Source: Centipeda periodontii DSM 2778 (lineage in GTDB: Bacteria > Bacillota > Negativicutes > Selenomonadales > Selenomonadaceae). From it: DNA of 37,213 nucleotides. Below, in pieces: positions 18,209-29,568 of the stretch (its first letter is position 1; each line of letters opens with the position of its first letter). Under the pieces are notes generated by a model. The model ran no database searches. It worked only from the letters and a program-made list of their open reading frames with translations, and was not told where the DNA came from. The translations under genes were made by a program, and so were the position numbers. The stretch is taken from positions 2,339,475 through 2,376,687 of the forward strand of contig NZ_GL892076.1 in assembly GCF_000213975.1 (NCBI RefSeq), in the 5' to 3' direction.

Positions 18209-21200
18209 TCACCGATGGTAGCGCACACAGAGTGCCTTGAGCTTCTTCGGGTCGAGTTCGAGGAGGTAGTCCTTCTTGAGGCTCCAGCGCCAGTTGATGC
18301 CGACGGTGCCCGGTGTGTTCATGCGGGCGCGCTCGTCAAGTGCGAGGAGATCCTGCATGGGGATGATCGCCATGCGGGCGCGCGAGGCGTATGCCGCCTT
18401 GATGAGGCGCTTGCATATCGTTTTCGGACGATCGGAGGTCGTACCCGTCATATTCGCGAGCGTCTCACGCAGCACCTCGTCGATGTCGTGCGTGAACCAG
18501 CCGACGGTGGTATTGTTGTCGTGTGTCCCCGTATAGATGATGCTGTTCTCGGGCGTAACAAAGCCAACGCGTCCCGACTCGTTCGGCTCAAGCATGAAGT
18601 GGACAATCTTCATGCCGGGGAAGCCGCAGTCGTCACGCAGACGCTCAACCTCGCTCGTGATGATGCCGAGATCCTCGGCGACAATGTTCATCTCACCAAG
18701 CTCCCTCTCAATCTCATCGAAGAAGGGCTTGCCCGGCCCCTTGAGCCAGCGGCCGTTGATCGCGGTCGTCGCCTTGCCGTCGACCGACCAGTAGGACTCG
18801 AATGCGCGGAAGTGGTCGATGCGAATGATGTCGACCTGTTCGTGCAGCTTGCGAAAGCGACGCTTCCACCATGCGTAGTTCTCCGCCTTCATCGCGTCCC
18901 AGTTGTACTGCGGGTTGCCCCAGAGCTGTCCATTCGCGGCAAAGTAGTCGGGCGGTACGCCCGCGACGGTACGCGGTGTACCATCCTCATTGAGGTCAAA
19001 GAGGTGCTGATTCGCCCATGCGTCTGCGCTGTCCTGTGCGATGAAGATGGGCATATCGCCGAGGACTTCGATGCCTTTCTTTTTCGCATAGTCATGCAGA
19101 CGATTCCATTGGAGATGGAAGATGTACTGCTTGAAGCGATCCAGTTCCACCTCATCCCTCTGCCGCTCGGCAAGTGCCTTGAGCGCCGCAGGGTCGCGGT
19201 GCTTGATCTCGTCCGGCCACTCTGTCCAAGGTTTGCGTGCATATTCTTTCTTTGCCGCATGGAAGAGGGCGTAGTCATCCAGCCAGTACGCTTCTTTTGC
19301 ACAGAACTCTTGGAATGCCTGATCCTGTGCGCTCGTCTTGCGGAACACGCGAAATGCTTTTTCGAGCAGTTCCTTCTTGAACTGTTTGACGCGTTCAAAG
19401 TCGATGAACGCCGTGTTCGCCTCGTATGGCAGGAAGAGATCCTTCTCTGTCAGCCAGCCGCGCGCGGCAAGATCCTCGGGATCAATCATCATGATATTGC
19501 CCGCGAACGCGGAGATGGACTGATAGGGCGAGTAGCCATGTCCAACGGGACTGAGCGGCAGAATCTGCCAGATCTTCTGCCCCGCCTCGGCGAGGAAGTC
19601 GAGGAAGCGATATGCTTCCTTGCCAAAGTCGCCCACGCCGTATTTTGACGGCAGGGAGGTCGGGTGCAGGAGGACGCCCGCCTTACGTTCGTAACGTTGC
19701 GGCTCCTCACGCTGACGCAGGAGGAGTCCAAAGAGCGGCGGAATCTTGATCCGCAGGCGTCCGCGCTCCACCTCGTATGTGCGCGAGGGCTTGAACGCAT
19801 CCTCAAACACGCCGCAGGCGAAGTCGCTCACCTCCACATCAATGGTCTGCGTCTCGGTAAGGTTACGGTTGAATGCGGCGATAAAGACACCGTCCTCCTT
19901 CTCCTGATTGAACACATCGTAGCCCGAGCGAATGGTGCGTGCATAGGCGATGACATCACCCGCACCGTAGAGCGGCAGGATATCGCCCGTGCGCAGTGCA
20001 TCGTTCTCGTTGCGGATCGCGATAAAGCGCTCGAACCAGCCGCGGATCTCCTTGTTGCCATGCACCCAGTCGTAGGGGCGGCGGTTGAACGGATCTTTGA
20101 AGCCCTCCATGCCGATCTCGTCGCCATAGTAGACGCTCGGCACGCCGGGATAGGTCATCTGCCAGAGGGTCGCCATGAGGAGGCGGCGCGAGCCGAGATC
20201 GAACTGCTCCGGCGTCATGCGCACGCGCGACTGCTCGATGGCGGGCATCCCTTCATAGTAGGGGACGCCGGCGAGTACGGTGATCGCGCGCTGTACGTCA
20301 TGGCTGCCGATGAGGTTCATCATCGCATAGAGATTTTCCTTCGGATAGTTCTCGATCTGACTTGCGAGCCGTCGTGCTGTCTGGCGTCCATCGACCGCGC
20401 CCGTGAGGAAGTCGAGCATCATCGTGCGCAGCGGGTAGTTCATTGCTGAATCCATCTCGCTCCCAGAGAGGTATTCGCGCGGCGTACCGTAGGCGACCTT
20501 GTTCGAGGCATCCTCCCAGACCTCACCGATCATGACGGCATCGGGGTTGCGCTTCTTCAGCTCGGCAAAGAACGTCTTGGAGAACGTCGGCGGGAGCTCG
20601 TCGATCACGTCGAGGCGCCAGCCCGCAATCCCCTCGTTCATCCAGTGGTGAAGCACGCTGTCCTTGCCTGTAATGACGAAGTCCATATAGGCAGGGTCGG
20701 TCTCGTTGACGTTCGGCAGCGTGTCGAAGTCCCACCAACAGTCGTACTCGTTCGGATAGTTGCGGAAGTGGTACCACGAGTAGTACGGCGACTCCTTCGA
20801 CTGGTACGCGCCGAGCGAGCTGTACTGATGCTGGCGGTTGAAGTAGATGCTGTTGCTGCCTGTATGGCTGAACACGCCATCGAGAATGATGCGGATGCCG
20901 CGCTCCTCTGCCGCCGTGACGAGGGCACGAAAGTCCTCAATATCGCCGAGCACGGGGTCGATCTTGTGGTAGTCTCCCGTATCGTAGTGATGGTTGCTTT
21001 CGGACTCGAAGACGGGGTTGAAGTAGATGCACGAGATGCCGAGCTGCTTCAGATAGTCCAGCTTCTCCATGACCCCGCGCAGGTTCCCGCCGAAGAAATC
21101 ATAAGCGATGATCTCCTTTGTGTCGGGATCCTTGAGATACATGGGGTCGTCTGTCCAGTCCGTGCGGATGACCGCGCCTTTCTTGCGGACGATGGTATCA

Positions 21201-21658
21201 CCCGAACGCGCGAAGCGATCCGGAAAGATCTGGTACATCACGGCATTCTTGAACCAGTCCGGTGTACGTGCGCCCTTGTTGTAGATCGTGATCTGATAGG
21301 ACTCGGGAGCCTCCATGGTGAGCGCTCCAATGCCGCCCAACATCTCCGGGTTGTTCCCATAAAAATAGGTGCCGCTTTCCGCTGTAATGATGAAGTAATA
21401 CCAAACCAGACAGCCATAATCCGGCAGATTGATCCATGCCGTATAGAATTTCTGCTCGTTCTGTCCGTCCTTTGTTTCGAGTGGGATCAGACGCTCCCCC
21501 GTCTGATCCTGCCAAAGGCGCACGAGTACCTGATGGATCGGCTCAAATGTCCGAATGCGAATGCCGAGCCGCAGACGACTCCCCGCCTCCGCCGCTCCGA
21601 CGATGGAGCGAAAATAAATATTCTGTGAGTTGTGCTCCACCTGATACGATTCCAGCAT
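18209..21658 (-). CDS. Fused GH13 alpha-amylase/neopullulanase and GH77 4-alpha-glucanotransferase (1149 aa)
   Basis: Two enzymes in one chain. Residues 1-130 are a CBM-like beta domain. Residues about 140-650 are a GH13 module: region I DGVFSHTG, region II GWRLDVIDE (nucleophile Asp near 349), region III MIGEVWED (acid/base Glu near 377) and region IV LIGSHDVQ (Asp near 452), typical of maltogenic amylases and neopullulanases. Residues about 655-1149 are a MalQ-type GH77 module: GVLLHPTSLPSKYGVGDFG, IRIDHFRAFESYW, IVAEDLGIIT and YTGTHDNNTTVGW. Together they can hydrolyse or debranch alpha-glucans and move the chains, so they process glycogen or malto-oligosaccharides. AAGGAG is 8 nt upstream. 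No signal peptide, so cytoplasmic. Last gene of the glycogen cluster. Confidence 0.93.
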   Translation of the reverse strand: MLESYQVEHNSQNIYFRSIVGAAEAGSRLRLGIRIRTFEPIHQVLVRLWQDQTGERLIPLETKDGQNEQKFYTAWINLPDYGCLVWYYFIITAESGTYFYGNNPEMLGGIGALTMEAPESYQITIYNKGARTPDWFKNAVMYQIFPDRFARSGDTIVRKKGAVIRTDWTDDPMYLKDPDTKEIIAYDFFGGNLRGVMEKLDYLKQLGISCIYFNPVFESESNHHYDTGDYHKIDPVLGDIEDFRALVTAAEERGIRIILDGVFSHTGSNSIYFNRQHQYSSLGAYQSKESPYYSWYHFRNYPNEYDCWWDFDTLPNVNETDPAYMDFVITGKDSVLHHWMNEGIAGWRLDVIDELPPTFSKTFFAELKKRNPDAVMIGEVWEDASNKVAYGTPREYLSGSEMDSAMNYPLRTMMLDFLTGAVDGRQTARRLASQIENYPKENLYAMMNLIGSHDVQRAITVLAGVPYYEGMPAIEQSRVRMTPEQFDLGSRRLLMATLWQMTYPGVPSVYYGDEIGMEGFKDPFNRRPYDWVHGNKEIRGWFERFIAIRNENDALRTGDILPLYGAGDVIAYARTIRSGYDVFNQEKEDGVFIAAFNRNLTETQTIDVEVSDFACGVFEDAFKPSRTYEVERGRLRIKIPPLFGLLLRQREEPQRYERKAGVLLHPTSLPSKYGVGDFGKEAYRFLDFLAEAGQKIWQILPLSPVGHGYSPYQSISAFAGNIMMIDPEDLAARGWLTEKDLFLPYEANTAFIDFERVKQFKKELLEKAFRVFRKTSAQDQAFQEFCAKEAYWLDDYALFHAAKKEYARKPWTEWPDEIKHRDPAALKALAERQRDEVELDRFKQYIFHLQWNRLHDYAKKKGIEVLGDMPIFIAQDSADAWANQHLFDLNEDGTPRTVAGVPPDYFAANGQLWGNPQYNWDAMKAENYAWWKRRFRKLHEQVDIIRIDHFRAFESYWSVDGKATTAINGRWLKGPGKPFFDEIERELGEMNIVAEDLGIITSEVERLRDDCGFPGMKIVHFMLEPNESGRVGFVTPENSIIYTGTHDNNTTVGWFTHDIDEVLRETLANMTGTTSDRPKTICKRLIKAAYASRARMAIIPMQDLLALDERARMNTPGTVGINWRWSLKKDYLLELDPKKLKALCVRYHR

Positions 21659-21817: not shown

Positions 21818-23263
21818 TCAGCTTTCGAGCAGGAGGCGCTCATAGAGAGTTTCGTACTCCTTCGCCGAGCGTTTCCAACTAAAGTCGCTGTGCATCGCCG
21901 TAAAGATAAGCTGACGCCACTCGCGCAGATTCCCATAGGCGGCAAGCGCGCGCTTCAAGGCATACATCATCTCATGTGCATTGTATTCGTAGAACAGGAA
22001 ACCGTTCCCCTTATCCACATCCGAACGATCGAATTGGATGACGGTGTCCTTGAGTCCTCCCGTCTCACGCACAACAGGAATCGAGCCGTAGCGCATCGCA
22101 ATAAGCTGTCCGAGTCCGCACGGCTCGAACATGGACGGCATGAGGAAGATGTCGGACGCCGCATAGATGCGTTGCGCCAGCTCGTTCGAGAAACGGATGT
22201 TGATCGACACCTTGTTCGGATAACGCCACGCCAGTTCCTTGAACCAATCCTCATAGCCGCGGTCACCCGTACCGAGGAGGACAAACTGCACATTCTCATG
22301 CTGGAGAATTTCATCCAGCACGCGTACGACGAGATCCAGTCCCTTGTTCGCGACAAGGCGTGTGATCATCGCGACCATCGGCACGCGGCGGTTCTCCGGG
22401 AGTCCCAGATCGCGCTGCAGGCGCACCTTGTTGTCGGTCTTGCCCTCGACCGCCTTTTTGATGTCGTAGTTGACATAGAGGTTCTTGTCCGTCTGCGGAT
22501 TGTAGACATCGTAGTCGATGCCGTTGACAATCCCGAAAAGTCTTTCACGGCGTTTGCGGAGAAGTCCCTCAAGATGTTCGCCGTAGTAGTCGTACTGGAT
22601 CTCCTCGGCGTATGTCTTGCTGACGGTGGATACATAGTCGGCATAGATGATGCCGGCTTTCATAAAGTTGACCGCATCGAAGAACTCGAAATCACCGTTA
22701 TTGAAATACTGCCAGTCAAGCCCAAGCACATCCGTCATGACATCCTTCGGGAAGACGCCCTGATACTTGAGGTTGTGGATGGTAAAGAGCGTCTTGATCC
22801 CCGTATAGCGCGAGTCATCCATATGCTCCAGCTTGAGGAACACCGGGACGAGCGCGGCGTGCCAGTCATTCGAATGGATGATGTCCGGCCAGAAATCAAG
22901 CGCAGGCAGGAGGTTGAGGACAGCGCGGCTGAAGAACGAGAAGCGCTCGGCATCGTCCGGATAGCCGTAGAATCCCTCGCGGTTAAAATACTCCTCGTTG
23001 TCCACAAAGTAGTAGGTCACACCATCGAGTACGTATTTGTCAATACCGACAAACTTGTCCCGCCATGCAACATTCAGGACCCCATCATAGATATGCTCCA
23101 TGGAGTTCCTGATGTCCTCAGCAATTGCACCATACTTCGGCAGAATAACGCGGCAATCCACCCCATCCTTGACGAGTGCGGCAGGGAGCGAACCCGCCAC
23201 ATCTGCAAGACCACCGGTCTTTACAAAGGGAACTGCCTCCGATGCTACATATAGTACCTTCAT
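21818..23263 (-). CDS. glgA: Glycogen synthase GlgA (481 aa)
   Basis: Transfers glucose from ADP-glucose to the growing alpha-1,4-glucan (GT5). Start set at the ATG at 23263 because AAGGAGG is 8 nt upstream and the protein then starts MKVLYVASEAVPFVKTGGLADV, the standard GlgA start with the ADP-glucose KTGGL motif; an earlier in-frame ATG would add 17 unrelated residues. Other motifs: IHSNDWHAALVP, TIHNLKYQGVFP, GIVNGIDYDVYNP, MITRLVANKGLDL and MFEPCGLGQLIAMRYG. Length normal. Part of the minus-strand glycogen cluster, downstream of glgB. Confidence 0.95.
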   Translation of the reverse strand: MKVLYVASEAVPFVKTGGLADVAGSLPAALVKDGVDCRVILPKYGAIAEDIRNSMEHIYDGVLNVAWRDKFVGIDKYVLDGVTYYFVDNEEYFNREGFYGYPDDAERFSFFSRAVLNLLPALDFWPDIIHSNDWHAALVPVFLKLEHMDDSRYTGIKTLFTIHNLKYQGVFPKDVMTDVLGLDWQYFNNGDFEFFDAVNFMKAGIIYADYVSTVSKTYAEEIQYDYYGEHLEGLLRKRRERLFGIVNGIDYDVYNPQTDKNLYVNYDIKKAVEGKTDNKVRLQRDLGLPENRRVPMVAMITRLVANKGLDLVVRVLDEILQHENVQFVLLGTGDRGYEDWFKELAWRYPNKVSINIRFSNELAQRIYAASDIFLMPSMFEPCGLGQLIAMRYGSIPVVRETGGLKDTVIQFDRSDVDKGNGFLFYEYNAHEMMYALKRALAAYGNLREWRQLIFTAMHSDFSWKRSAKEYETLYERLLLES

Positions 23264-23374
23264 CCCTATATCCTCCTTTTCCTCACGGGAGGATGCCGTA
23301 ATCATCCATCCCATGAGTCGATCCTCTAATTTATCTCAGCTTTCCTCATTCTCCTATCAATGCGTACAGTTTTC

Positions 23375-25774
23375 TTACGACTTTGCTGCACGCGTTTTCT
23401 TTGGTTTTTCTTCTCCTTCTGCCGCCTTTTTACGCGCGGGTGACTTCTTTGTCGCCGTCATGGTCGCCGTGCGCTTCTTCGGCGCGGCGGCTGCGGCTTC
23501 GGTCAGCTCCTCTGCGCTCTTTGTCTTGGCGGTTTTCTTCGGCGCAGCCTTCTTTGCGGGCTTTTCCGCCTCCGTCTCCTTTGCGGCAGCTTTCGTGGTC
23601 TTCTTTGCTGCCGTCCTTTTTACGGGCGCGGCAGAAGACTCATCCTTCTTCGCTGCAGCGCGGGGACCAGCGGACTTTTTCTTTGTTTCTGTTTTCGCCG
23701 CTTCCTTGTCTGCCGTCTTTGTCGTCGTACGCTTCTTCGGTGCCGGTTTTTCCGTCACCGTATCCGCTTCCGATGCCTTTGCGGCAGCGGCTCCGGTCTT
23801 AGGCGTTACTGCTTTTTTTTTTGCAACGGCATCCACCGTCTCGGGAATCTCGTGGTCGGGCGTTCCCGCACCGCTCTGGCGCTTCAGACGGTAGAAGGTC
23901 GAGGCAAGCGGCGGCACCGTGATGACAATGGACTGCTCACGTCCGTGGAACGCATAGTCCTCGCTCACGATATCGCCCGTGTTGAGAACACCGCTGCCGC
24001 CGTAGGCTTCCTCGTCGGAGTTGAACACCTCGACATAGGTGCCCTTCGTCGGTACACCGATGCGGTAGCCGTGGCGTACCTCTGGGGTGAAGTTGTGGAC
24101 GCAGACGATGAAGTCGCTGCGATCCTCGGCGCGGCGGATAAGCGAAATGATGCTGTTCTCGTTGTCGTTGCAGTCGATCCACTGGAAACCGTTCCAGTCA
24201 AAGTCGACCTGCCAGAACGCCTTGTTGTCGACATAGAATTTATTGAGCGCCTTCGAGTAGGCGAGCATCTTCGTGTGCATCGGGTACTGCTCGACGAGGT
24301 GCCAGTCCATGCTGTCGTCAAAGTTCCACTCGATGAAGTGCCCGAACTCACCGCCCATGAAGAGCAGCTTCTTGCCCGGATGTGCGATCCAGTAGCCGAA
24401 GAAACCGCGCAGACCCGCGAATTTCTGCCAATAGTCGCCCGGCATCTTGCTGATGAGCGAGCACTTTCCATGCACGACTTCGTCGTGTGAGAGCGGCAGA
24501 ACGAAGTTCTCGGAGAAGGCATACATGAGGGAGAATGTGATCTTGTCCTGATTCCACTTACGGTAGATCGGATCAAGGCTCATGTACGAGAGCATGTCGT
24601 TCATCCAGCCCATGTTCCACTTGTAGTTGAAGCCCATGCCGCCCATGTAGACCGGCTTGGAGATGAGCGGCCACGCGGTCGACTCCTCCGCAATCATGAG
24701 TGCGTTCGGATGGTACTTGAAGATCGTCTCGTTGAGCTTCTTCAGGAAGTCCATCGCCTCAAGGTTGCCCGTGTCGCCGTACTTGTTCGGCTGCCACTCG
24801 CCGTCCTTGCGCCCGTAGTTGAGGTAGAGCATGTTCGCAACCGCGTCGATGCGCAGGCCGTCGATGTGGAACTCCTCGAACCAAAACAGCGCGTTCGAGA
24901 TGAGGAAGCTCTGCACCTCCGTGCGCCCATAGTCAAAGTTCGTGGTGCCCCACTCCCAGTTCTCCGCACGCATCTCATTGTCGGACTCGTAGAGGTTCTT
25001 GCCGTCAAAATGGCGAAGCCCCTGTTCGTCCTTGCAGAAATGTCCGGGCACCCAGTCCATGATGATGCCGATGCCGTTCTGGTGGGCCGTATCGACGAGA
25101 TAGCGGAAGTCGTCGGGCGTGCCATAGCGGCTCGTCACGGCGAAATAGCCCGTTGCCTGATAGCCCCACGAACCGTCATAGGGGTGTTCGCACAGTGGCA
25201 TGAACTCAATGTGAGTATAGTTCATGTCCTTGACATAGCCGATGAGTTGATCCGCCAGATCGCGGTAGGAGAGATACTCCCCCTCAAGCGTGCGGCGCCA
25301 CGATCCTGCATGCACTTCATAGGTGAGCATCGGACGCTCGTAGGAGGACTCCTCCTCTTTGCGCTTCTGCCACGCCTGATCGCCCCACACATAGTGGTTC
25401 ATGTCGTAGGTGCGGGATGCCGTCTGCGGCTTCTTTTCCGCGTAGAACCCGTAGGGGTCCGCCTTCATGATACGGGGACCGCCCCACTGCGGCTCAATCG
25501 CGTATTTGTAGATCTCGCCCTCTCCGAGCCCCTCGACAAAGGTCTCCCAGATCTCGCCGTCGTCGATGCGGTTCATCGGGTTGATAAAGACATTCCAGTC
25601 GTTGAACTCGCCGACAACACTGACGGCATTTGCATTCGGCGCCCATACCGTAAATCGGATGCCCTTTTTCCCGTCCTGTTCGACGAAATGCGCTCCGAGC
25701 ATTTCCTGTGCATGATAGTTTGTGCCCTGATGAAAGAGGTAAAGATCAAACTCACTGAGCGTAGATGTTTTCAT
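23375..25774 (-). CDS. glgB: 1,4-alpha-glucan branching enzyme GlgB with Lys/Ala-rich tail (799 aa)
   Basis: Makes alpha-1,6 branches in glycogen (GH13). AGGAGG is 7 nt before the ATG. Order: CBM48 (GIRFTVWAPNANAVSVVGEF), GH13 catalytic domain with GLRIDAVANMLYLNYG (nucleophile Asp near 308), LMIAEESTAWP (Glu near 360) and LSHDEVVHG, and a C-terminal beta domain ending PPLASTFYRLKRQ at about residue 634. The next 165 residues are extra: low-complexity Lys, Ala, Thr and Pro with repeated AAKK, KKRT and KKTAK pieces, like the tails of histone H1 or bacterial HU. The frame is continuous with no stop or shift. The ordinary enzyme of this class ends near residue 640. Confidence 0.94.
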   Translation of the reverse strand: MKTSTLSEFDLYLFHQGTNYHAQEMLGAHFVEQDGKKGIRFTVWAPNANAVSVVGEFNDWNVFINPMNRIDDGEIWETFVEGLGEGEIYKYAIEPQWGGPRIMKADPYGFYAEKKPQTASRTYDMNHYVWGDQAWQKRKEEESSYERPMLTYEVHAGSWRRTLEGEYLSYRDLADQLIGYVKDMNYTHIEFMPLCEHPYDGSWGYQATGYFAVTSRYGTPDDFRYLVDTAHQNGIGIIMDWVPGHFCKDEQGLRHFDGKNLYESDNEMRAENWEWGTTNFDYGRTEVQSFLISNALFWFEEFHIDGLRIDAVANMLYLNYGRKDGEWQPNKYGDTGNLEAMDFLKKLNETIFKYHPNALMIAEESTAWPLISKPVYMGGMGFNYKWNMGWMNDMLSYMSLDPIYRKWNQDKITFSLMYAFSENFVLPLSHDEVVHGKCSLISKMPGDYWQKFAGLRGFFGYWIAHPGKKLLFMGGEFGHFIEWNFDDSMDWHLVEQYPMHTKMLAYSKALNKFYVDNKAFWQVDFDWNGFQWIDCNDNENSIISLIRRAEDRSDFIVCVHNFTPEVRHGYRIGVPTKGTYVEVFNSDEEAYGGSGVLNTGDIVSEDYAFHGREQSIVITVPPLASTFYRLKRQSGAGTPDHEIPETVDAVAKKKAVTPKTGAAAAKASEADTVTEKPAPKKRTTTKTADKEAAKTETKKKSAGPRAAAKKDESSAAPVKRTAAKKTTKAAAKETEAEKPAKKAAPKKTAKTKSAEELTEAAAAAPKKRTATMTATKKSPARKKAAEGEEKPKKTRAAKS

Positions 25775-25834: not shown

Positions 25835-28300
25835 TTATGAGATAATGACGGGGTGGATATTCCAGATCTCCCGTGCATACTCGTCAATTGTGCGGTCGGA
25901 CGAGAAGCCGCCGGAGTGCGCGACGTTCATTGCCGCCGTACGTGCCCAGCCGTCCTTGTCCTTGAACCGGCGCATGACCTCGATGCGTGCGTTGTCATAC
26001 GCATTGAAGTCCTTCAAGATAAAGAATTCATCGTTCGCGTGCAGGAGATAATCATACAGCGAACGGAAATCCCCATAGGTACCATCGACGAGCTGGTTCA
26101 TCACCGTGCGCACCTTCTCATTCGTGTTGTATTCATCCCACGCTGAGTAGGCCCCCGTCGCATAGTAGTTCATAACCTCCTCGGCCTTAAGACCGAAGAT
26201 GACACAGTGCTCACTGCCCACTGCATCCCGGATCTCGACATTCGCGCCGTCGAGCGTGCCGAGTGTGATTGCGCCGTTCATCATGAACTTCATATTGCCC
26301 GTGCCCGACGCCTCCTTCGACGCCGTGGAGATCTGCTCGCTGACATCCGCTGCTGGATAGACAAGCTCGCCGATGGAAACACCAAAGTTCTCAATGAAGA
26401 TGACCTTCATAAAGTCATTGACGCGCTTATCCTTGTTGATCCGGTCAGCAACCACATTGATAAGACGAATCGTTTCCTTCGCGATGTAGTAGCCGGGTGC
26501 CGCCTTGCCGCCAAAGAAATACGTCACGGGCTGCGTCAGGAAAGACGGCTCATTCTGAGCACGGTGGTAGCGATACATGATGTGCAGAATGTTCATCAGC
26601 TGCCGCTTATAGGAGTGGATGCGCTTGACCTGGATGTCGAACATCGAATCCGGATTCAGCTTGACACCGTTGTGGTGCTCAATATATTGGGCAAGCCCCT
26701 CGCGGCGCAGATGCTTAATCTTCATGAGCTGCTCAAGGAAGTTCTTGTCCTCGACGTGGTCATGCAGACCGTCCATCTTCTCCGGATGACGGTGCCACTC
26801 ACGGCTATTGAGTATATTGTCAATCAGCGCGGCAAGCTCGGGATTTGCTCCCATAAGCCAGCGTCGATGCGTAATGCCGTTTGTCTTGTTGTTGAACTTG
26901 CGCGGCGTATAGTCGTAGAAATCTTTGAGCGTCGTGGACTTTAGGATCCCTGTATGGATCTTCGCCACACCGTTGACGCTGTGTCCGCCGACAATGGAAA
27001 GACGCGCCATGTGGATCACGCCGTCCTGAATGATGGAAAGAGCACGCACCTTGTCCTCGTTGTTCGGGTAGCGGCGGCGCACTTCCTCGATATGACGGCG
27101 GTTGATCTCATCGATGATCATGTAGATGCGCGGCAGAAGCGGCTTGAACATATCAAGGCTCCACGTTTCAAGTGCCTCCGGCATGATCGTATGGTTCGTA
27201 TACGCGATCGTATCACGCGTAATTGCCCACGCATCCTCCCACGTCAGCCCCTCATCGTCAACAAGGACACGCATGAGCTCTGCCACGCAGAGCGCCGGGT
27301 GTGTATCGTTGATGTGGATACCGATCTTCTTGCCGAAGTCGTAGATGCCCATGCCCGTCTTCTTGTAGTGACGGACAATGCTCTGCACACCTGCCGAAAC
27401 AAAGAAATACTCCTGAATGAGACGCATACGACGCCCTTCAAACGTGCTGTCGTCCGGATAGAGATAGCGCGTGATGGACTCGACAAAGTTGCGATAGTCA
27501 TTGCGCTGCTGAATCTGCTCCTGCGTCAGAAGCCCATAGTCGGAGAAGTCACGGTTGACCTCCGCGTTCCACATGCGCAGCGTATTGACCGTTGCATTGT
27601 GGTAGCCGACAATCGGCATATCGTACGGCACCGCCATGACAATCATCGAGTTCTCGTGGACAAGCTCGAGCTTGCCGTTCCCGATGTCGCGCATATAGGC
27701 ATTGCCGCCAAATTTGACATCGACCGACTTGTCCGGCTTGCGGTACTCCCATGCGAAACCATCGCGCAGCCAGTTGTCCGGAATTTCGACTTGGTTGCCG
27801 CCGACAATCTTCTGCTCGAAGAGCCCGTACTGATAGCGAATCGTACAGCCATGTCCGGGCAGACGATGTGCTGCGAGAGAGTCGATAAAGCAGGCGGCAA
27901 GACGCCCTAACCCACCGTTGCCAAGCCCCGCATCCGGCTCTGCCTCGTAAGCGTCCGAGAGATTCAGCTTGAAGTCCTTGAGGACATCCTTCAGTGCCTC
28001 TTCGATGCCGAGATTGATGAGGTTGGATTTCAAGAGTCTGCCCAGCAGGAACTCGATGGAGAAGTAGTAGATCTGCTTCTCCTTCCGCTCCCCATACTGC
28101 TTGTTCGTCTTGATCCAATTGTCCGAGATGGACTGTTTGGCGGTTGCTGCGATCGTCTTATAGATCTCGATCTCCGTCAGTTCCTCTACCTCGCGGCCAA
28201 ACAAAACATGCGCGGTTGTGATAAAACGGCTCTTCAAGATCTTTTTCATTGTCTCGAGAGCTTTCCCTGTCGGCCTCATGACCTGATCCTTCTGTGCCAA
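25835..28300 (-). CDS. glgP: Glycogen phosphorylase GlgP (821 aa)
   Basis: PLP enzyme releasing glucose 1-phosphate from glycogen (GT35). Start placed at TTG 28300: AAAAGGAG lies 8 nt upstream, and the protein then starts MAQKDQVMRPTGKALE; the ATG at 28279 is a possible alternative. Upstream codons in the same frame are an artefact of the leader hairpin. Motifs: YFSIEFLLGRLL, EPDAGLGNGGLGRLAACF, IHINDTHPALCVAELMR, FGGKAAPGYYIAKE and the PLP-lysine motif EASGTGNMKFMMNGAITLG. Length fits the family (about 810-830). Lies between glgD and glgB. Confidence 0.95.
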   Translation of the reverse strand: MAQKDQVMRPTGKALETMKKILKSRFITTAHVLFGREVEELTEIEIYKTIAATAKQSISDNWIKTNKQYGERKEKQIYYFSIEFLLGRLLKSNLINLGIEEALKDVLKDFKLNLSDAYEAEPDAGLGNGGLGRLAACFIDSLAAHRLPGHGCTIRYQYGLFEQKIVGGNQVEIPDNWLRDGFAWEYRKPDKSVDVKFGGNAYMRDIGNGKLELVHENSMIVMAVPYDMPIVGYHNATVNTLRMWNAEVNRDFSDYGLLTQEQIQQRNDYRNFVESITRYLYPDDSTFEGRRMRLIQEYFFVSAGVQSIVRHYKKTGMGIYDFGKKIGIHINDTHPALCVAELMRVLVDDEGLTWEDAWAITRDTIAYTNHTIMPEALETWSLDMFKPLLPRIYMIIDEINRRHIEEVRRRYPNNEDKVRALSIIQDGVIHMARLSIVGGHSVNGVAKIHTGILKSTTLKDFYDYTPRKFNNKTNGITHRRWLMGANPELAALIDNILNSREWHRHPEKMDGLHDHVEDKNFLEQLMKIKHLRREGLAQYIEHHNGVKLNPDSMFDIQVKRIHSYKRQLMNILHIMYRYHRAQNEPSFLTQPVTYFFGGKAAPGYYIAKETIRLINVVADRINKDKRVNDFMKVIFIENFGVSIGELVYPAADVSEQISTASKEASGTGNMKFMMNGAITLGTLDGANVEIRDAVGSEHCVIFGLKAEEVMNYYATGAYSAWDEYNTNEKVRTVMNQLVDGTYGDFRSLYDYLLHANDEFFILKDFNAYDNARIEVMRRFKDKDGWARTAAMNVAHSGGFSSDRTIDEYAREIWNIHPVIIS

Positions 28301-28393
28301 ATCGTCCACTCCTTTTCCAAACTTCTCTTGTTTCCCCCGACCTTCTATTCCTGCATGTGACAAGAATCCCCTAAGAAGTATCAGAAACAAGAA

Positions 28394-28450
28394 GCCGTTA
28401 TAGCCCCCTCCCGTTCCGATGATCGAAACGAGGCGGGAACCGCTAACGGC
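28394..28450 (-). terminator. Stem-loop between glgD and glgP
   Basis: GCCGTTA (28394-28400) and TAACGGC (28444-28450) enclose an inner CCCG/CGGG stem. On the minus strand it is followed by TTCTTGTTTCTGATACTTCTT. It can reduce read-through from glgD into glgP, as a partial terminator. Confidence 0.6.
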
Positions 28451-28461
28451 AAAAACAAATC

Positions 28462-29568
28462 TTAAATCGTGATATTCTTCTTGATGACGAGCGGATACTC
28501 TGCGGCTCCCTTCAGCCACTTCTCCGCTGTGATCACAACGTTCTTGTCGCAAATGACATTTTCGACAAGCGCGCCATCCTGAATGTCACATTTCTGCATG
28601 ATGATCGAATTCCGGATCTTCACATCCTTGCCCACGTTTACCCCGCGGAAGAGGATGCTGTTCTCCACCTCGCCGCGTACGATGCAGCCGTTCGCAATGA
28701 GAGAATTGGTGACCTTCGCCGTCTCCTTATACTGGACGGGCACACCGTCCTTGATCTTTGTGTAGATGGGGCGGTCACCCATGAAGAGACTCTGCCAGAC
28801 CTCCGGATCGAGGATCTCCATGTTCGCCCGATAGTAGGTCGACATAGAGTCCACATGCGCCATGTAGCCGTCGTGCTCGTAGGCGAACATCGTATAGTCG
28901 CCGGCACGCCGGATGATGCCGTCGAGTACGAAATCCTGCCCGCCGCGCTCGTAGGCATAACGGACAATCTCGACGAATGCACGCTTATCCATGAGATAGA
29001 CCCCCATGGAGACCTTCATGCCCTGATAGGCAACCGGCTTCTCCGCAATATCGAGGACAAGCCCGTTCTCCGCCGTATCAAGCACAATATTATTGCCCGT
29101 GTTCTCGTCGATCGTCGTATGCGAAACGAGTGTGATATCTGCACCTGTATTCTGATGGAACCGCAGCACCTGATTGAAGTCGATGTTGTAGACGAAGCTG
29201 CCGTTCGTCAGCAGAATGTAACGTGTGGAGGCATGCTCGATGAAGTCCAGATTGTGATAGAAATTCTTGAGATCGCCCTTGCGGCGCTGCGCGTCGTCGT
29301 GCGCGGCAGGCAGATAGAAGAGTCCATCGTGGCGACGCGCCAGATCCCAGTCTTTGCCGGAACGCAGGTGATCGAGCACGGAACGCGGTTCATCGGGGAG
29401 CATGATACCCACCTTGTTGATGCCGGAATTGACCATGCTTGAGAGGGAAAAATCAATCAGGCGATAACGTCCGGCGAAAGGAATGGATTCAACAGCACGT
29501 CGGTCGGCGAGTTCACGGATGAGACTTCCGTCCTCCTGCAGGTTAATGAGTCCCATTACGCTATTCAT
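28462..29568 (-). CDS. glgD: GlgD, ADP-glucose pyrophosphorylase regulatory-type subunit (368 aa)
   Basis: Paralogue of GlgC found with it in Firmicutes; in characterised species it raises the activity of GlgC. It starts MNSVMGLINLQEDGSLIREL and so lacks the GGxGxRL nucleotide-binding motif of the catalytic subunit, while keeping the rest: FAGRYRLIDFSLSSMVNSG, LTNGSFVYNIDF and C-terminal left-handed beta-helix repeats (IRNSIIMQKCDIQDGALVEN). Thirty nt downstream of glgC on the same strand. Confidence 0.93.
   Translation of the reverse strand: MNSVMGLINLQEDGSLIRELADRRAVESIPFAGRYRLIDFSLSSMVNSGINKVGIMLPDEPRSVLDHLRSGKDWDLARRHDGLFYLPAAHDDAQRRKGDLKNFYHNLDFIEHASTRYILLTNGSFVYNIDFNQVLRFHQNTGADITLVSHTTIDENTGNNIVLDTAENGLVLDIAEKPVAYQGMKVSMGVYLMDKRAFVEIVRYAYERGGQDFVLDGIIRRAGDYTMFAYEHDGYMAHVDSMSTYYRANMEILDPEVWQSLFMGDRPIYTKIKDGVPVQYKETAKVTNSLIANGCIVRGEVENSILFRGVNVGKDVKIRNSIIMQKCDIQDGALVENVICDKNVVITAEKWLKGAAEYPLVIKKNITI

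Follow-up and report, generated by a model that had tools for sequence, protein, structure and literature searches.

A lysine-rich tail on the glycogen branching enzyme of Centipeda periodontii may tie glycogen stores to the chromosome

PhaM, PhaF, and AlgP are reported, in the available text of three articles (PMC13052382, PMC9239181, PMC3556143), to put granules of polyhydroxyalkanoate (PHA) or polyphosphate on the nucleoid. For AlgP, the accessible part of one of these states that granule spacing requires the C-terminal KPAA domain, whose fragments bind DNA (PMC9239181). PHA and polyphosphate granules already have known nucleoid tethers. Glycogen is mentioned 0 times in the main text of a 2025 review of organelle positioning. 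In an Escherichia coli csrA mutant, glycogen is described as gathering at the old pole, where it shifts or excludes the chromosome (PMC4836754), and old-pole glycogen is also reported to displace the chromosome in wild-type cells entering stationary phase (PMC12706056). Among relatives of the organism treated here, S. ruminantium appears in a table of glycogen-accumulating organisms (PMC10395257). This article describes the glycogen branching enzyme GlgB encoded in a stretch of 37,213 nucleotides of Centipeda periodontii DSM 2778 (contig NZ_GL892076.1, positions 2,339,475 to 2,376,687), herein called the window. The protein shares one trait of these tethers: it acts on a storage polymer and ends in a lysine-rich tail.

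We tentatively propose, with somewhat less than even confidence, that this tail has been selected, is probably disordered, and binds nucleic acid, chiefly chromosomal DNA, so that GlgB and its glycogen would be tethered to the nucleoid, and that slippage at a run of ten adenines (A10) at the tail entrance would yield some tailless GlgB. Disorder, DNA binding, tethering, slippage, and the existence of two GlgB forms are all points that we infer. A search of titles and abstracts, with subscription journals mostly outside its coverage, found no published histone-like tail or A run of GlgB. The terms glgB, branching enzyme, and glycogen are not named in the searched main text of a survey of prokaryotic frame transitions (PMC3711429), and the searched part of a review of prokaryotic α-glucan enzymes (PMC11046441) contains neither "lysine-rich" nor "histone".

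The lysine-rich tail of GlgB

The glgB gene (23375..25774; like all features given herein, on the minus strand) is a single open reading frame (ORF) of 799 residues. The core of the enzyme (residues 1–634, 23873..25774) is made up of CBM48, a GH13 barrel, and an all-β C domain and ends around residue 634 with STFYRLKRQS. It is followed in an unbroken frame by 165 further residues (635–799, 23378..23872), consisting of 23% K, 26% A, 15% T, and 7% P and carrying a net charge of +23. An initial annotation, made from the letters of the window alone, had proposed a GlgB with about 165 in-frame residues past STFYRLKRQ. This is borne out, and its interval was about right, with the tail codons running from 23872 to 23378 and the stop codon from 23377 to 23375.

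The composition of the tail stands out in a sample of its own genome. The sample herein comprised 1,062 mechanically called ORFs in 1.24 Mb, that is, the window and 60 stretches of 20 kb (~45% of the genome). The most lysine-rich 80-residue stretch of this sample lies in the glgB ORF (29% K, the runner-up having 17%), which is also the sole ORF whose most lysine-rich stretch reaches at least 20% K and at least 60% K+A+T+P. When the ORFs are ordered only by the net charge of their final 120 residues, glgB comes no higher than fifth, after arginine-rich mechanical ORFs. A tail search of the genome for other tailed proteins matched glgB alone, and the degenerate pattern KKxAAxKK was found at one place, outside glgB, as often as in its backwards control. 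Growth of the window tail by tandem repeats was rejected, as no DNA tandem repeats (score at least 30) are present in window positions 23300–23900.

The tail may be disordered. The AlphaFold model assigns it no secondary structure and a confidence (predicted local distance difference test) of ~21–31 per block, within a whole model that is poor (mean 46.7, alignment of 30 sequences). Order-promoting residues make up a median of 6.5% of the 81 family tails described below, as opposed to 37% of the cores.

The tail is no assembly artefact, since it is present in frame in all 14 genomes of the genus, with a length of 145–184 residues and a net charge of +22 to +32. A separate gene or a fusion made in annotation was likewise rejected. 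No K/A-rich frame exists within up to 2 kb downstream of any of the 27 GlgB loci with no tail or a short one, and a glgA homologue lies downstream of glgB in all 106 family loci with at least 900 nt of flanking sequence, tailed or tailless. The tail thus survives the comparison with relatives by which the initial annotation had wished it to be judged, neither missing from them nor encoded there by a gene of its own.

In the family, a GlgB match was found in 174 genomes, of which 110, drawn from among the matches listed, were read at the C terminus; two of these ran into contig ends and were excluded, leaving 108 complete sequences, and six more GlgB were read separately. The tail measures at least 30 residues in 81 of the 108 and fewer than 30 in the other 27. 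The 81 longer tails span 30–255 residues; their net charge is positive in 77 and at least +10 in 70. When aligned, they show a mean column identity of 18% and not one invariant column. The family tails, hence, have composition in common, not sequence. The ratio of nonsynonymous to synonymous variation (pN/pS) over the 14 genus genomes is 0.47 for the tail (0.42 in gap-free columns) and 0.07 for the core; the alignment of a low-complexity tail is uncertain and leans to matches, by which the constraint on the tail may be overstated. Judged by this ratio, the tail is loosely constrained. In one relative (G022, L076:2077-2508(-)), the tail is apparently frame-shifted halfway compared with its g3 relatives and is still basic (KQKQKKRLSRRQQEQEKLR).

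Outside the family, a tail was counted as K-rich with at least 25 residues, a net charge of at least +5, and at least 15% K+R. Such tails, many of them short (28–84 residues), occur in 14 of 34 GlgB from other Negativicutes families, namely in f3, f13, and f27, the 34 being the best-scoring among the matches listed and not a random draw. K-rich tails of 35–88 residues were also found in Clostridia, in a set of at least 80 loci on contigs that is biased, one of the six query peptides having come from the tail; rates were therefore drawn only from the family and the other Negativicutes. All four Clostridia genomes searched contain two to three GlgB-like matches, and the long frame is restricted to one copy, the others being classed by open-frame length alone. 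In two of these genomes (G334 and G335, L341–L344), the long-frame copy adjoins GlgC- and GlgA-type genes; in the other two (G336 and G337, L345–L348), it is the short-frame copy that adjoins GlgC and GlgA, and the tail is on the other copy. A different kind of tail is found in Ruminococcus sp. RUG12253 (L146), whose GlgB carries 265 residues of repeated AAPKAEVKEEVK units with mixed charge and a net charge of −5.

A tree of GlgB cores was built from 215 rows, 117 tailed and 98 untailed, leaving aside L115–L126 (mostly duplicates of family records), the fragment L169, and two rows cut by contig ends. The tail state changes at least 21 times on this tree, compared with a mean of 71 with shuffled labels. 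The tail is thus inherited within clades and was gained or lost repeatedly, the count being blind to gain versus loss. Similar enzymes of other groups seem to have gained their tails separately.

Nucleic acid–related features are found in several relatives. The Pfam family HC2 (histone H1-like) matches 7 of the 81 family tails at E ≤ 0.01, with a best E of 1.6e-7, and RGRP, which we take to be the core of the AT-hook motif, is present in 12 of the 81, in five genera, where shuffling lets one expect 0.065. A search with HC2 in 107 family genomes gave 22 places in 19 genomes, three of them GlgB tails. Twelve of the non-GlgB places were inspected, and eight are DNA topoisomerase I, identified by Pfam for two and by a shared N-terminal motif for six; hence, the same kind of stretch recurs in the family on a true DNA enzyme. 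In these topoisomerases (L329, L330, L332, L333, L334, L335, L337, and L340), the histone H1-like K/A/T stretches are N-terminal, and L332 has one at its C terminus also. Other HC2 places are an EKAAA repeat protein (L331, in G159) and a frame of R/I/V repeats such as NRRIVNRRII (L338, in G032). The name histone H1-like, given to the tail by the initial annotation, thus applies to seven family tails and to topoisomerase I in eight family genomes outside the genus, while the window tail itself is unmatched. Among the candidate polyanions, DNA appears to fit best.

The A10 run at the tail entrance

Residues Ala651–Lys654 are read from GCA AAA AAA AAA, that is, from a run of ten A on the coding strand (23822 down to 23813), which is a candidate slippage site. 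Two TAA stops follow, one of them in the +1 frame and one codon past the run (23806..23808), the other in the −1 frame and four codons past it (23799..23801). In all eight genomes of the genus that have an A10, losing one A leads to a stop after one residue and gaining one A to a stop after four. The run is absent from the initial annotation.

A search of both strands of the whole own genome (2.76 Mb) turned up no second run of this kind. With overlapping matches counted as one, runs of ten or more A are limited to the one in glgB in G005, G011, and G013 as well; there are two in G008 and G012 and four each in G002 and G006. The entrance run is exactly A10 in 8 of the 14 genus species, A9 in G010, A8 in G001, and A7 in G007, and the entrance is without any run of at least seven A in G003, G004, and G009. 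As the eight A10 species and G010 have the nine most similar cores (95–100%) among the matches listed, the A10 is probably of single origin.

The codons of the entrance differ from those of the rest of the tail. In the genus tails, KKK is written AAA AAA AAA in 8 of 9 cases at the entrance and in 0 of 16 elsewhere (Fisher 8e-6), and KK is written AAAAAA in 19 of 21 and 5 of 141 cases, respectively (Fisher 3e-18), both tests ignoring kinship. Of the 47 columns in which all eight A10 species have lysine, five are AAA throughout, and three of these five are the A10. The run thus appears to be kept against the codon trend, in one clade and by counts that ignore kinship.

Outside the genus, 116 tails from all sets were compared, among them a few duplicates and the biased loci from Clostridia, with an entrance zone that was picked after the data had been seen. 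Herein, runs of at least A8 number 12 in 12.2 kb of entrance, 8 in 23.0 kb of the remaining tail, and 7 in 216 kb of core. Of the runs of at least A9 in these tails, 7 lie at the entrance and only 1 lies farther on. The seven belong to f3, a Megasphaera-like family by the tree (three genomes), the genus of Propionispira (two), one Anaerovibrio, and G178.

Bacterial RNA polymerase is reported to slip efficiently at nine A's or T's, and the late A9 of Thermus thermophilus dnaX, with stops in both off-frames, leaves about half of the product short, as given in the available parts of PMC1088944 and PMC5009743. E. coli ribosomes are described as sliding along AAA runs and terminating at off-frame stops (PMC4363877). 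The A10 of glgB and its close off-frame stops have the layout of Thermus dnaX, by which GlgB with and without the tail is predicted. RNA polymerase slippage or ribosome sliding at the run would let a share of GlgB end around residues 655–658, tailless. Of eight consensus RNA pairs in the eight A10 genomes, just two lie beyond the A10; hence, simple slippage is favored over structured frameshifting. Ribosomal frameshifting with a downstream structure is accordingly a disfavored candidate, a rejection tempered by the window's own 80 nt past the A10, which fold better than shuffles (z −2.66). An antisense terminator or promoter at the complementary T10 was looked for, and none was found.

Possible functions of tail and run

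The polycationic tail would bind chromosomal DNA without sequence specificity, and the branching enzyme and its glycogen would thereby be held at the nucleoid. The tail on GlgB would thus work as the histone H1-like tails of PhaF, PhaM, and AlgP do on PHA or polyphosphate granules and would counter the polar collection of glycogen. A further, more doubtful proposal is that the A10 sets how much GlgB is tailed and chromosome-bound and how much is untailed, so that glycogen is spread over the nucleoid and does not gather at the old pole, and that this solution may have been reached several times, A9 runs being present at the tail entrance in f3, Propionispira, an Anaerovibrio, and another genus as well. 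Were glycogen pinned to DNA via GlgB, these bacteria would offer a natural contrast to E. coli in which glycogen partitioning is directly testable, as well as a portable genetic means to relocate glycogen in the cell. Transcriptional slippage at the A10 would then serve a purpose new to it, that of deciding if an enzyme is made with its addressing tail.

Several findings weigh against the proposed tether and its slippage site. The window tail matches no Pfam family, HC2 included, even at E ≤ 10, and contains no RGRP. The Pfam AT_hook model stays below its cut-off in all eight tails tried, the best relative reaching 16.0 of the 17.4 bits needed. HC2 matches are confined to 19 of the 107 family genomes; 4 of the 12 inspected non-GlgB places are something other than topoisomerase, and of the 22 places in all, 7 were left uninspected. 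None of the 14 genus genomes has an HC2 match, so that topoisomerase I of the genus lends no such support. DNA and RNA are not separable by composition alone. The tail is also dispensable, since none of the 20 genomes read from g10, g12, g15, and g18 has one longer than 12 residues, and four of five g22 genomes keep a linker of ~42 residues with a net charge near 0. As for the run, the A10 is confined to one clade (of 14 species, eight have A10 and one has A9). Among the eight A10 species, the average pairwise difference is 36% at fourfold sites and only 15% for core Lys codons, and a single Lys codon is used across all eight in 26 of the 47 all-Lys columns. The off-frame stops are expected by chance at 3–29% per genome under synonymous shuffling. 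Moreover, the E. coli study, in its available part, names robust ribosome sliding for A11 (PMC4363877). The four g22 sequences (L055, L056, L058, and L059), in which the linker GAGYIAPE...EVKGREEKE is kept and the lysine-rich part is gone, form a natural tail-minus set.

A doubtful alternative is that the tail is a general condenser of polyanions or RNA, binding RNA, ribosomes, or anionic polymers so that glycogen condensates hold GlgB, with the chromosome not being the target. The composition of the tail suits RNA equally well as DNA, and glycogen condensates of E. coli are reported to rearrange nucleoid, ribosomes, and RNA (PMC12706056, available part); the topoisomerase I stretches and the RGRP motifs of five genera point to DNA, though they occur in relatives and not in the window tail. 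The polymer could also be polyphosphate, with the tail as an anchor joining two storage polymers, as AlgP, which has a similar tail, is described as acting on Pseudomonas polyphosphate granules (PMC9239181, available part). We consider this very improbable. A PPK1 domain matches in 45 of the 107 family genomes and in 0 of the 14 genus genomes. Counting tails of at least 60 residues and a net charge of at least +9 as long, 90 genomes divide into 21 with long tail and PPK1, 35 with a long tail only, 20 with PPK1 only, and 14 with neither. There is thus no positive link, and polyphosphate fits poorly as a ligand, judged on PPK1 alone and not on PPK2. Of the polyanion tether suggested in the initial annotation, the DNA part is hence the one that appears to stand, and the polyphosphate part fares badly; its proposals of membrane binding and granule condensation may still apply. 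Docking to an acidic partner such as GlgA or GlgP, or to the inner membrane face, instead of nucleic acid is quite unlikely: glgA follows glgB in every locus examined for it, yet the tail has just 8 hydrophobic or aromatic residues among its 165, which, like the lack of any invariant column, would be unusual for a specific dock.

The tail could, furthermore, be a near-neutral low-complexity extension that arose by stop-codon loss and slippage-like growth and drifts harmlessly. Its widely varying length, its fast sequence turnover, and the 27 family members with fewer than 30 residues fit such an origin, which we nevertheless hold to be unlikely: the charge of at least +10 is held in most of the longer tails, the pN/pS of 0.47 argues for some constraint (possibly overstated by the alignment), the window tail is free of tandem repeats, the tails recur on the same enzyme and at the same end, and the own-genome sample has no comparable ORF. 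A separate alternative concerns the A10 alone, which might be a phase-variation switch by DNA slippage or tune polarity onto glgA and not set a fixed ratio of GlgB forms. Homopolymers are mutable, and slipped ribosomes would halt ~480 nt ahead of glgA (23314). This is rather unlikely; the frame is intact here in all 14 genus genomes, as would not be favored at a frequently switching locus. Nucleoid tethering by the tail, with a tailless share of GlgB from slippage, stays the reading that we tentatively prefer.

The glycogen operon and comparison with described systems

The window GlgB lies among other genes of glycogen metabolism, which were assigned by Pfam. The next gene downstream is glgA, encoding glycogen synthase (21818..23314), and the next upstream is glgP, encoding glycogen phosphorylase (25835..28552); the true start of glgP is probably inside its ORF because the Pfam match starts only at residue 191. 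A GlgC/GlgD-type nucleotidyl transferase (28462..29568) and a protein of 1149 residues (18209..21658) are also present, the latter joining an alpha-amylase-type GH13 domain to a GH77 4-alpha-glucanotransferase.

In GlgB itself, CBM_48 matches at residues 26–109, followed by the alpha-amylase barrel and by Alpha-amylase_C at 532–630, all three above the Pfam cut-off. GlgB_N stays below its own cut-off (19.7 versus 27 bits). The window protein thus appears to be an ordinary GlgB, a GH13 branching enzyme, with an added tail. Ordinary bacterial GlgB shares these core domains and the operon partners glgA, glgP, and a glgC-type gene with the window; unlike the window GlgB, it has no cationic tail of 165 residues. 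HC2 proteins and AT-hooks resemble the tail in composition, and HC2 matches or RGRP cores occur in the tails of some relatives, whereas the window tail matches neither.

For the A10, the closest described system is dnaX of Thermus thermophilus, as far as its description was available. It has an A9 on the sense strand, where glgB has an A10, and the run lies at seven-eighths of the gene, compared with residue 654 of 799. Both genes have stops near in both other frames, so that slipped mRNA yields, or in glgB would yield, a shortened protein that lacks the C-terminal extension. In dnaX, slippage was measured, with about half of the product being short, whereas for glgB it is predicted, and gene and extension differ.

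For the tail, the closest systems are PhaF of Pseudomonas putida, PhaM of Ralstonia eutropha, and AlgP of P. aeruginosa, which, in the accessible descriptions, carry a histone-like C-terminal end on a storage-polymer protein, as GlgB does here. AlgP comes nearest in size, with a K/P/A-rich end that comprises a repeat region of 154 residues within 195 residues predicted to be disordered. Its KPAA repeats are regular, whereas the window tail has no tandem repeats; only likeness and no homology is claimed. DNA binding and granule placement on the nucleoid have been proposed or shown for the three proteins, whereas the GlgB tail is known from sequence. They are granule-associated proteins for PHA or polyphosphate, whereas in Centipeda periodontii it is the branching enzyme that carries the tail and the polymer is glycogen.

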